Below, piece after piece: positions 3,024-6,667 of a stretch of 64,000 nucleotides of DNA (positions are counted from its first letter, which is position 1; each line of letters starts with the position of its first letter). Source of the stretch: Cyanobium sp. ATX 6F1 (GTDB lineage: Bacteria; Cyanobacteriota; Cyanobacteriia; PCC-6307; Cyanobiaceae); assembly GCF_024346315.1 (NCBI RefSeq), contig NZ_JAGQCS010000011.1, positions 1-64,000 of the forward strand, written 5' to 3'. The notes below the pieces were generated by a model. The model had not been told where the DNA came from and did no database searches. It saw nothing but the letters and a program-made list of their open reading frames with translations. The translations under genes were made by a program, and so were the position numbers.

Positions 3024-5186
3024 GTGTGGATGCGTCGCCTCTCCAGGGATTCAGCCAATCAGCTGAGCATCAAATCAAAGCTGATCCTGATGCTGCTGCT
3101 GGTGAGCGGCTTTTCCACGCTGATCTCAGCGGCCCTGGGCTATCGAAGCGGCCAGATCAATCTCACCAATCGGGTCTTCAATCAGCTCACCAGTGTTCGA
3201 GCTTCAAAGGCCTATCAGATCGAATCCTATTTTCGGAACATCCAGAATCACACGCAGACCTTGAGTGAAGACCTTTCCATCGTTGCTGCCGTCGAGCAGT
3301 TCGATGCGGCCTTCAAGCAACTCAAAGGTGTTGCCGAGCCGGCCCAATCAGACCGGGCCTTGGAGACGTACTACCGCAAGGAATTCCTACCAAGGCTGGA
3401 TAAATACCATGCCGGCACTCCGAACCTTCCCGCCTATCTGGCCAATGACCCGGCCACGCGCTACCTCCAGTACAACTACATTGCGGCCAATCCCAATCCC
3501 GTAGGAAAAAAGCAGCAACTCGCCGCCGCCAAGGATGGCAGCGGCTACTCCCAGGTCCATGGGCGCTATCACCCGATCTTTCGCAACATCGTCGCCAAGT
3601 TCGGCTACTACGACATGTTCCTGATCAACCCCCAGGGACAGATCGTCTACACCGTTTTCAAGGAAACCGATTACGCCACCAACCTTGAGAATGGCCCCTA
3701 CAAGGACAGCAATCTGGCCGAGTTGGTGCGTCAGGTGATCGCCTCGAAGGAGAAGGGCTTCACCCGGCTGGTCGACTTTGCCGCCTATGCCCCCTCCTAC
3801 GGCACACCCGCTTCCTTCATCGCCGCTCCGATCTACAACGGCTCCAAGTTGGTGGGCGTTCTGGCCTTTCAGTTGCCCGTCGACGAGATCAACAACGTGA
3901 TGACCGGCAACCAGGACTGGAAAGAAGATGGACTGGGGAAATCAGGCGAAACGATCCTGGTGGGCCAGGACAACCTGATGCGTTCGGCCTCGCGCTTCTA
4001 TCTGGAGGATCCCAAGGCCTTTCTGGCGCAGTTGCAGTCCCGCGGCATGAAGGAGGACGCGATCGCACGCCTGCGCCAGTTCAACACCACAATCCTGCAG
4101 CAGCCGGTGACCAGCCCAGCGGTGACCAAGGCGATCGCCGGTGGCTCCGGAACCCTGCAGGTCGTCGACTATCGCGGCGTGCCGGTGCTGAGTTCCTATG
4201 CGCCACTGGCGATCAAGGGTTTCGACTGGGTGATCCTCTCCCAGATGGACCTGGCGGAGGCCTATGCACCGATCCATGCCTTCCAGCGTCAGATTCTGAT
4301 CACCGTGACGCTGCTGATCCTGCTGGTCACCCTCCTGGCCATGGCCCTGGCCCATCTGTTCGTGAAGCCTGTCCAGCAACTGATCGAGAGTGCCCGCAAG
4401 GTCTCTTCCGGCGAACTCACGAGCATCCCGGAAGTGAATTCCAAGGACGAATTCGGTGAGTTGGGTCGATCCTTCAATGCCGTCGTGCAGAGTCTCCAGA
4501 CTCAGACAGCGCTGGTCGATCAAAAGAACCATGAGAATGAGCAGCTGCTGTTCAGCGTCTTTCCGGCGGCGATCGCACGGCGGCTGCAACGGGGTGAAAC
4601 CCAGATCGCCGAAGACGTCACCAACGTGGCGGTGCTGTTCGCCGATCTCAAGGGATTCTCCAAACTCTCTTCTTCGCTCACGGCCTATGAGTCGGTGGCG
4701 ATTCTCAACGATCTGGTGGGTTCCTTTGATGATCTAGCCGAACGATTCGGGCTGGAGAAAATCAAGACGATCGGCGACAGCTATCTGGCGGTCTGCGGCC
4801 TCTCGGTGCCCTATCTCGACCATGACAAACGGGCCCTCGATTTCGCCATCGAGATGCTCGGCATCCTGCGCCGTTTCAACCTCGAGCGGGGCTTCTCGCT
4901 CGGCATCCAGATCGGCATCCACTCCGGCGACATTATTGCCGGCATCGTCGGCAAGAGTCGAGTCGTCTATGACATCTGGGGCGTAACGGTGAAACAGGCC
5001 CATGGCCTCAGCCAGGAGTGTCCATCCGGCAGCGTTCTCGTTTCCGAGGTGGTGCATCACCGGCTCGAGGATCTCTACCAGTTCGAGCTCATCGCCGCAT
5101 CAACCAATGGTCAAAAGTCTCAGCAGGCCTGGCGGTTGACGAGCAGCACCGTGCCAGCGGTCGGCGAGGTTCTCTCCGAGCCATGA
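3024..5186 (+). CDS. Membrane receptor with Cache-type sensor, HAMP and class III cyclase-like domain
   Basis: 720 residues: first membrane helix at about 19-41, a large Cache-like outer domain to about 420, second helix about 421-444, HAMP about 446-500, and a class III nucleotide-cyclase domain from about 535 to 700. Metal-site aspartates are present in FADLKGFS (near 540) and IGDSY (near 584), as is the lysine in EKIKTIGD. The final catalytic segment reads YDIWGVTVKQAHG where active cyclases have WGDTVNxAxR, so the adenine-reading Asp and the catalytic Asn and Arg are replaced. Activity is therefore doubtful. Its stop overlaps the ATG of the channel gene. GTG at 3024 or ATG at 3030 may start it. 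Confidence 0.85.
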   Translation: MWMRRLSRDSANQLSIKSKLILMLLLVSGFSTLISAALGYRSGQINLTNRVFNQLTSVRASKAYQIESYFRNIQNHTQTLSEDLSIVAAVEQFDAAFKQLKGVAEPAQSDRALETYYRKEFLPRLDKYHAGTPNLPAYLANDPATRYLQYNYIAANPNPVGKKQQLAAAKDGSGYSQVHGRYHPIFRNIVAKFGYYDMFLINPQGQIVYTVFKETDYATNLENGPYKDSNLAELVRQVIASKEKGFTRLVDFAAYAPSYGTPASFIAAPIYNGSKLVGVLAFQLPVDEINNVMTGNQDWKEDGLGKSGETILVGQDNLMRSASRFYLEDPKAFLAQLQSRGMKEDAIARLRQFNTTILQQPVTSPAVTKAIAGGSGTLQVVDYRGVPVLSSYAPLAIKGFDWVILSQMDLAEAYAPIHAFQRQILITVTLLILLVTLLAMALAHLFVKPVQQLIESARKVSSGELTSIPEVNSKDEFGELGRSFNAVVQSLQTQTALVDQKNHENEQLLFSVFPAAIARRLQRGETQIAEDVTNVAVLFADLKGFSKLSSSLTAYESVAILNDLVGSFDDLAERFGLEKIKTIGDSYLAVCGLSVPYLDHDKRALDFAIEMLGILRRFNLERGFSLGIQIGIHSGDIIAGIVGKSRVVYDIWGVTVKQAHGLSQECPSGSVLVSEVVHHRLEDLYQFELIAASTNGQKSQQAWRLTSSTVPAVGEVLSEP

Positions 5187-6667
5187 ACACTTCCTCGCCT
5201 CTCTTGATGTGGGGGATCGGCCTGGCGATCGGCTTTCCCCTGCTCACGATCCTGCTGGGCGAACTGATCCATCGCCTGAAGCGACGGGGTCTGGCGATTG
5301 CGAGCACGGTTCGACTGGTGCGCGATGTGCTGCTGCCGATCCTGGTGCTGCTGGTCTTCCTGCAGCACCTGCTGATGGTCGACCCCAGCGGCCGCCTGTT
5401 CAAGGCCGTCGAGACGGTGTTCTGGGTCTGCGTGATCCACGCCGCCCTTTCCCTGCTCAACGTGATCCTGTTTGAGCAGGCCGAGGCCGACACCTGGCGC
5501 TCAAGGGTGCCGAAGCTGCTGATCGATCTGGCGCGCCTGTTTCTGATCCTGCTGGGTAGCGCCTTCGTGCTGGCCACGGTCTGGAACGCCGATCTCGCTG
5601 GCCTGGTCACCGCCCTGGGGGTGAGTTCGATCGTCATCGGCCTGGCCCTGCAGGACACGCTCGGCAGTGTGATGTCAGGGATTGCGCTGCTGTTCGAGCG
5701 CCCGTTCACGGTGGGGGACTGGCTGGAGGTGGGCGGCGTGGTGGGCCAGGTGATCGACATCAACTGGCGCGCCGTGAGGTTGCTGACCCTGGAGCAGGAG
5801 ATGGTCGTGATCCCCCACAAGCTGATCAGCAGCGAGATCATCCGTAATTTCACCAAGCCCAACAAGATCCACGCCGAACGGATTCAGATCGGTTTTTCTT
5901 ACAACGATCCGCCCAACCTGGCCCGGCAGGTGCTGAAGAGCACGGCCCTGGAAACCAAGGGCATTCTGCTCGATCCAGAGCCCGATGTGTTCACGCTCGC
6001 CTATGCCGACTTTGCCGTGTCCTATGAGGTGAAGTTCTTCATTCGCGATTACGGCGATGTGGAGCAGATCCGCGAACGTTTCATGACCAGGGTCTGGTAT
6101 GCCGCCAAGCGCAACAACCTCTCGATTCCTTTTCCGATCCGCACCGTCTACAACTACCACGGGCCCACGAGCCAGCAGAAAGGCATCGCCAAGAAATTCA
6201 ACGAAAGCCTGCAGGCCATTCCCTCCTACGTTCCGATCAATCGCGAGGAGAGCAGCGCCGCCACCTCAACAACAGGCATCGCCCTGCAGCATTTTGCCGC
6301 GGGCGAAAAGGTGATCCGCCAGGGGCGTATGGGCAATGAGCTCTACATCATCGTCGCCGGCCAGGCGGTGATGTCCACCCGGGATGAAAGCGGCGAGGAG
6401 CTGGAGTTACTTGCCCTCAGAAGTGGTGAGTTCTTCGGCGAGATGAGTCTGTTTTCCGGTGAACCCAGCGTCGTGACCATCGCCGCCAGCAATGACCTGG
6501 AGGTGATGAAGCTCCCAGCGGCGGTGGTCAATCAGATGATCGATCGCCAGCCCAGCTTTGCCCGCGAGATCGGCCAGATCCTCGAGATCCGCCGCCTGGC
6601 GATCCAGGAGACGAAACAGGCCCACCGGCAGTCGCTCCAGGACCAGCAGGCGGGCCAACGCACCTGA
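5183..6667 (+). CDS. MscS-family channel with C-terminal cyclic-nucleotide-binding-type domain
   Basis: 494 residues from the ATG at 5183, which overlaps the stop of the cyclase-like gene (ATGA); the frame is open upstream but shadows that gene. Four or five membrane segments fill residues 5-170, with an MscS pore and beta domain (GVSSIVIGLALQDTLGSVMS, then VGDWLEVGGVVG). A cNMP-binding-type domain spans about 365-460, with GEFFGEMSLFSGEPSVVTI. This architecture is that of bCNG channels. The arginine that normally holds the nucleotide phosphate (in a GEPRSAT-like motif) is absent; the sequence reads GEPSVVT. The channel may answer another ligand, or only membrane tension. Confidence 0.85.
   Translation: MNTSSPLLMWGIGLAIGFPLLTILLGELIHRLKRRGLAIASTVRLVRDVLLPILVLLVFLQHLLMVDPSGRLFKAVETVFWVCVIHAALSLLNVILFEQAEADTWRSRVPKLLIDLARLFLILLGSAFVLATVWNADLAGLVTALGVSSIVIGLALQDTLGSVMSGIALLFERPFTVGDWLEVGGVVGQVIDINWRAVRLLTLEQEMVVIPHKLISSEIIRNFTKPNKIHAERIQIGFSYNDPPNLARQVLKSTALETKGILLDPEPDVFTLAYADFAVSYEVKFFIRDYGDVEQIRERFMTRVWYAAKRNNLSIPFPIRTVYNYHGPTSQQKGIAKKFNESLQAIPSYVPINREESSAATSTTGIALQHFAAGEKVIRQGRMGNELYIIVAGQAVMSTRDESGEELELLALRSGEFFGEMSLFSGEPSVVTIAASNDLEVMKLPAAVVNQMIDRQPSFAREIGQILEIRRLAIQETKQAHRQSLQDQQAGQRT

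Follow-up and report, generated by a model that had tools for sequence, protein, structure and literature searches.

Do two neighbouring genes that look like the source and the target of cyclic AMP (cAMP) still use this messenger? The question is raised by a locus of Cyanobium sp. ATX 6F1, within the first 64,000 nucleotides of contig NZ_JAGQCS010000011.1 (the whole stretch that was analysed, called the window below). Here, the gene of a membrane receptor with a class III cyclase homology domain overlaps that of a channel of the MscS family with a C-terminal cyclic nucleotide-binding (CNB) domain. An earlier note, made from the letters of this stretch, had proposed that the pair is built to make and to sense cAMP and that both partners lack nucleotide-recognition residues. 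We examine this proposal by means of comparisons with homologues across the cyanobacteria and AlphaFold2 models of the two proteins. We will show that part of the active site of the receptor and the phosphate-binding Arg of the channel are gone, and that these losses are shared by their relatives. The reading that we prefer, with a probability of roughly 0.55, is that cAMP plays no part in the gating and that the pseudo-cyclase receptor acts on its MscS partner as a noncatalytic conformational module.

Catalytic Residues of the Receptor

The open reading frames and the Pfam assignments agree with the earlier description of two intact genes, with a four-base overlap, that encode a cyclase-like receptor and an MscS channel with a cyclic nucleotide-binding-type domain (see Table 1 for coordinates). 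In the window receptor, two of the six canonical cyclase residues, the transition-state Asn and Arg, are gone, and the two metal Asps, the adenine-specifying Lys and the base Asp are kept.

The position of the base Asp requires some explanation. The cyclase domain contains YDIWGVTVKQAHG, as had been read before, and the Asp of the canonical WGD motif had then been taken as the base-reading residue. In the alignment with the C2 domain of AC9, YDIWGVTVKQAHG of the receptor pairs with YDIWGDTVNIASR, and YDIWGDTVNIASRM was used to place the base Asp at D650. The counterparts in Ma1120 are D157 for the base Asp, position 164 for the Asn, and R168 (PMC4215837), and the spacing of +7 and +11 is identical to that of D650, K657 and G661 in the receptor. 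On account of this alignment and this spacing, we assign the base Asp to D650 of YDIWG. Of the changes claimed earlier, those of the Asn and the Arg are thus real, while the base Asp is present, and the supposed loss of base recognition is not supported, as both the base Asp and the Lys are conserved.

The homologues were gathered from 60 relatives, a genome-collection scan, 390 genomes of the class and additional fetched stretches. The receptor counts refer to the 104 homologues in which all six sites are aligned, and kinship among them is ignored. At least one of the six catalytic residues is missing in 103 of these (one in 45, two in 25, three or more in 33), that is, two or more are missing in 58. 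The most frequent pattern, DKDDNA, is found in 31 receptors and lacks the Arg alone. The picocyanobacterial clade that includes the window receptor has Lys at the Asn site, in one branch Asn and Arg are retained but the second metal Asp is Ser, and in the most divergent one hardly any of the six remain. The sole receptor with a complete set (L149:51-2315, G366:C9) has a neighbouring channel of the Ser type.

On a quick tree calculated from the dCache and HAMP columns, with the cyclase columns excluded, parsimony gives minimum numbers of switches between canonical and non-canonical states of 9 for the first metal Asp, 4 for the Lys, 6 for the second metal Asp, 5 for the base Asp, 9 for the Asn and 4 for the Arg, with at least 37 letter changes at the Arg site. 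Separate branches have therefore lost separate residues. As a control, related genomes supplied 21 canonical class IIIa cyclases, and in all of these the six residues are intact. Sequencing error can be ruled out as the origin of the substitutions: in ten close orthologues, the Asn site is Lys throughout and the Arg is always absent, and Ser is found in every close orthologue of the channel. Judged from this distribution, the residue losses are ancient and conserved.

The most degenerate branch carries a globin domain C-terminal to the cyclase domain (L202:3126-5726, L194:2825-5614 and L198:1957-4590, and weakly in L026). No PDB structure was matched by sequence to the dCache part of the receptor. 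The same dCache sensor also heads proteins with an MCP domain, in Nitrospirae (L085-L087) and in one cyanobacterium (L201:2770-5235), the assignment being made by Pfam for L085 and L201.

The Binding Pocket of the Channel

The claim that the channel has lost its phosphate-binding Arg is borne out. Its CNB motif, FFGEMSLFSGEPSVVT, includes the GEPSVVT read earlier; the ribose Glu is kept and the Arg is replaced by Ser429. In the family, this position is Ser or Thr in 110 of 110 channels. In 15 of them, the ribose Glu has itself given way to V, A, Y, M or T. Position 422, which corresponds to the site of Ala202 in PKA RI-alpha, is Ser in the window, and over the family A occurs 60 times, T 31, S 11, V 5, I 2 and G 1.

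Outside the family the picture is another one. Paralogous MscS-CNB channels from the same taxonomic family retain the Arg, and it is also kept, in a GEPRSAT-like motif, in the three outgroup channels of the phylum in which the motif was located, out of four fetched. Since these channels keep it, the phosphate Arg appears to be normally selected for; in PKA, it neutralises the cyclic phosphate (PMC10959531).

The earlier note had also suggested a coordinated change on both sides. A strict coordination is not what we find, as the replacement in the channel is uniform, the losses in the cyclase domain are piecemeal, and L149 is complete beside a Ser-type channel. For these reasons a channel-first order is more probable than one joint switch of both partners: the channel Arg was probably lost first and the cyclase residues repeatedly thereafter, as read from the tree and not from a reconstruction. 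L149 is also a case of canonical residues in one partner only, which had been named beforehand as an observation that would refute the proposal; it is one receptor out of 104.

Table 1. Features of the receptor–channel locus, in window positions.
Feature	Position	Strand	Details
Pseudo-cyclase receptor	3024..5186	+	720 aa, GTG start; transmembrane segment, dCache, transmembrane segment, HAMP, class III cyclase homology domain; from open reading frame, Pfam, orthologues
dCache_1	3603..4238	+	receptor residues 194-405; Pfam E 1e-12; predicted extracytoplasmic sensor
HAMP	4347..4499	+	receptor residues 442-492; Pfam E 2.4e-13
Class III cyclase homology domain (Guanylate_cyc)	4611..5090	+	residues 530-689; PF00211 E 7e-38
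D541, first metal Asp (Me1), present	4644..4646	+	D in 62/104 homologues, lost in 42
K579 (EKIKT), adenine-specifying Lys, present	4758..4760	+	K in 85/104 homologues
D585, second metal Asp (Me2), present	4776..4778	+	D in 74/104 homologues, lost in 30
D650 of YDIWG, adenine-specifying base Asp, present	4971..4973	+	D in 87/104 homologues
K657, replaces transition-state Asn	4992..4994	+	Lys in 10/10 close orthologues; Asn in 63/104 homologues
G661, replaces transition-state Arg	5004..5006	+	Arg in just 9/104 homologues
ATGA overlap, receptor stop/channel start	5183..5186	+	4 bases
MscS-family channel with C-terminal CNB domain	5183..6667	+	494 aa; from open reading frame, Pfam
MscS beta and C-terminal domains (MS_channel_2nd, MS_channel_3rd)	5654..6127	+	PF00924, PF21082; Pfam
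cNMP_binding-type domain	6287..6547	+	channel residues 369-455; PF00027 E 3.1e-19
E420, ribose-binding Glu of FGE, present	6440..6442	+	E in 95/110 channels
S429, replaces phosphate-binding Arg	6467..6469	+	Ser 106, Thr 4, Arg 0 of 110

Coupling of the Two Genes

We now consider whether the two genes belong together. At the E-value limits used, 77 of the 390 cyanobacterial genomes have both, 5 the receptor alone and 3 the channel alone. Two of the three lone channels adjoin a weaker receptor (L205, L206), and one of the lone receptors, L201, is the MCP-domain protein with the same sensor mentioned above. The receptor lies upstream of the channel in 142 of 144 two-gene loci (a count that includes repeat fetches of the same place), and the four-base overlap recurs in picocyanobacterial pairs and in some Leptolyngbya-type pairs. 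Between the distance matrices of the receptor domains and those of the channel domains, the correlation is 0.87-0.95, and 98 of 99 pairs have their nearest channel within their own receptor clade. Judged from these comparisons, receptor and channel diversify together.

The dN/dS ratios are 0.07-0.16 for the whole genes among close relatives and mostly 0.03-0.25 by domain, far below 1 in each domain compared, and by this measure both genes are under purifying selection. Because orthologues throughout the class carry the changes seen in both partners, as the homologue alignment suggested in the earlier note now shows, and because selection is purifying and the genes of receptor and channel stay together, recent decay of the pair can be dismissed, in line with what had been argued there.

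Predicted Structures

The AlphaFold2 models, calculated as single chains, have mean confidence scores (pLDDT) of 85.5 for the receptor and 86.9 for the channel, the latter with five predicted N-terminal helices. The cyclase domain of the receptor model superimposes on 5oyh with Z 26.8 and a root-mean-square deviation (rmsd) of 2.1 over 180 residues, and on the mammalian C1 domain (1azs) with Z 26.7 and rmsd 2.2 over 186 residues. For the CNB domain of the channel model, the Z scores against known CNB structures are 15.6-17.2, the best being 4muv (Z 17.2, rmsd 3.3, 132 residues); the cAMP-independent PKA regulatory subunit (PKAR) of T. brucei, 6flo, gives Z 16.1 and rmsd 3.8 with 138 residues aligned. 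The MscS part, for which the Pfam matches PF00924 and PF21082 and the structural match to 7raz (Z 15.8, rmsd 4.3, 190 residues) agree, has the pore helix and the beta and C-terminal domains of the MscS superfamily.

Proposed Mechanism and Alternatives

With parts of the active site and the residue that grips cAMP lost, the receptor probably controls the channel by a route other than cAMP, and among the possibilities raised in the earlier note, the best fit is a receptor that acts on the channel without catalysis. In the mechanism that we propose, the dCache domain would sense an external ligand and the HAMP domain would relay the change to the dimeric cyclase-shaped domain. The latter, as a conformational module that may still bind ATP, would then gate the MscS channel next to it by acting on the CNB-shaped domain of this channel. 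From the residues lost, we infer that catalysis by the receptor and cyclic nucleotide binding by the channel are both absent, and direct contact would be the favoured route between the two proteins. The more general version, according to which cyanobacteria have a widespread type of receptor-operated MscS channel, gated by a pseudo-cyclase in direct contact with a CNB domain that binds no cyclic nucleotide, is offered tentatively, and we consider it somewhat doubtful as a whole.

A number of observations weigh against the proposed mechanism. The approximately 31 receptors that lack the Arg only (DKDDNA) could retain low activity, and L149 has all six residues. The conservation of the Lys and the base Asp in most members suggests that nucleotide binding still matters. 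Some pairs are 4.5-28 kb apart or split over contigs, and no natural receptor–channel fusion was found in the fetched loci. The correlation between the receptor and channel trees is in part shared species history, and contact between a dimeric receptor and a heptameric MscS channel requires a geometry that is unproven. As to fusions, a 953-aa open frame in G420 was considered and judged to be an outgroup channel of the Arg type whose frame is spuriously extended.

The main competing explanation is one of altered messenger chemistry, in which the receptor continues to produce a nucleotide signal, be it at a low rate or as another compound, and this signal is the different ligand bound by the Ser-type CNB domain. 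It can draw on the 31 receptors of the largest subgroup, which keep the metal Asps, the Lys, the base Asp and the Asn, on Ma1120, which functions without the Asn (PMC4215837), and on the trypanosome PKAR, an Arg-less CNB protein with Thr or Asn at the site that binds nucleosides (PMC10959531). However, other branches without the metal Asps, the Lys or the base Asp keep the same Ser channel, the Arg site of the receptors is free to vary (the at least 37 changes given above), and the nucleoside-binding Glu of PKAR is Ala, Thr, Ser or Val at position 422 of the channels. A nucleoside pocket of the trypanosome type was therefore rejected: the polar replacement of the Arg is there (Ser/Thr), but the critical Glu is absent. 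We judge altered chemistry to be a serious contender that is nevertheless unlikely. Considerably less probable is a scenario in which the Ser-type pocket still binds cAMP made by other cyclases of the cell, with the receptor modulating an otherwise normal cAMP-gated channel. The ribose Glu is indeed retained in 95 of 110 channels, and further cyclases of the host genome retain both the Asn and the Arg, but the 15 channels with a replaced Glu, the retention of the Arg by MscS-CNB channels outside the family and the role of this Arg in PKA all argue against it.

Slightly less probable again is that the receptor is one half of a heterodimer, giving the metal site and leaving the Asn and Arg to another cyclase, as in mammalian C1/C2, with the channel reading something else. 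The window receptor is C1-like in having both metal Asps and no Asn or Arg, and its top PDB sequence match is AC9, in the first cyclase domain. In the host genome (2.96 Mb, 17 contigs), as in G056, the receptor is, however, the sole cyclase of its type at E < 1e-20, and the other cyclases whose motif was read (L002-L004; L005 is excluded) are CHASE2 proteins whose motif is that of another subclass, which makes a class IIIa catalytic partner unlikely. Furthermore, many members lack the metal Asps and have Asn/Arg, or lack both, and the lost Arg of the channel would be left unexplained. Simple decay, finally, in which the pair is being lost and its substitutions are meaningless, would account for catalytic positions that vary freely, but it is hardly credible in view of intact frames in about 80 of 390 genomes, dN/dS near 0.1, an invariant Ser/Thr and conserved predicted folds.

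If the mechanism without cAMP is correct, both halves of a cAMP circuit have been retained and the messenger dropped, leaving a direct sensor–channel pair. The approximately 100 natural pairs, at differing stages of active-site loss, make the order of the losses and their consequences directly testable. They also call for caution in annotating the two genes as an adenylate cyclase and a cAMP-gated channel.

Relation to Known Systems

Silent cyclase halves are known from mammalian C1/C2 and from the alpha subunit of soluble guanylate cyclase, where they act in a product-making heterodimer. The present receptor resembles them in its cyclase-shaped domain, its partial active site and its retention by selection, but differs in having no evident partner. 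With the class IIIa adenylate cyclases that have a sensor and a HAMP domain, represented among its PDB sequence relatives by AC9 and Rv1625c, the window receptor shares the fold, the metal Asps, the Lys and the base Asp; it differs from them in the transition-state Asn and Arg, and other branches also lack the metal Asps, the Lys or the base Asp.

The channel is closest in architecture to the bacterial cyclic nucleotide-gated (bCNG) channels within the MscS superfamily (Caldwell 2010 and Malcolm 2012, in the reference list of PMC4560390), which combine an MscS core with a C-terminal CNB domain and among which a Synechocystis member is named. The present family would differ from them in having Ser or Thr for the phosphate Arg throughout and a pseudo-cyclase receptor gene attached. 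The cAMP-independent PKAR of trypanosomes (PMC6440977, PMC10959531) is similar in that its CNB domain has a small polar residue for the Arg, and 6flo is among the top structural matches; its nucleoside-binding Glu is, in contrast, missing from the channel family. The Pycsar anti-phage pairs (PMC11224242) are likewise two-gene units of a cyclase and an effector. They make cUMP or cCMP, whereas the present cyclase is degraded, its receptor has a predicted external sensor, and the channel has no plasmid match at E 1e-40. We found no account of the receptor–channel pair in the open-licence literature, mainly at the level of titles and abstracts.

Genomic Surroundings

The closest named matches of the receptor in the genome-collection scan are from Cyanobium and Synechococcus strains. 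Clustering of the neighbours of the loci established no conserved third gene: the clusters are mostly shadow frames of the two genes themselves, together with a flanking set common to four close relatives only and a GGDEF/EAL-type cluster in 8 loci, the latter inspected in L181 only. In this locus of G041, receptor and channel are separated by an opposite-strand gene for a GAF/PAS/GGDEF/EAL protein (L181:4459-8370), and similar frames occur in seven other loci. Upstream of the pair in the window, positions 2007-2489 encode a PIN-domain protein according to Pfam. Elsewhere in the host genome (L186, G000:C4:122000-136000), there is an MscS-CNB channel of the Arg type, with a CHASE2-cyclase that has both Asn and Arg about 1 kb off on the same strand, and this neighbourhood also holds a glutaminase with a CNB domain.

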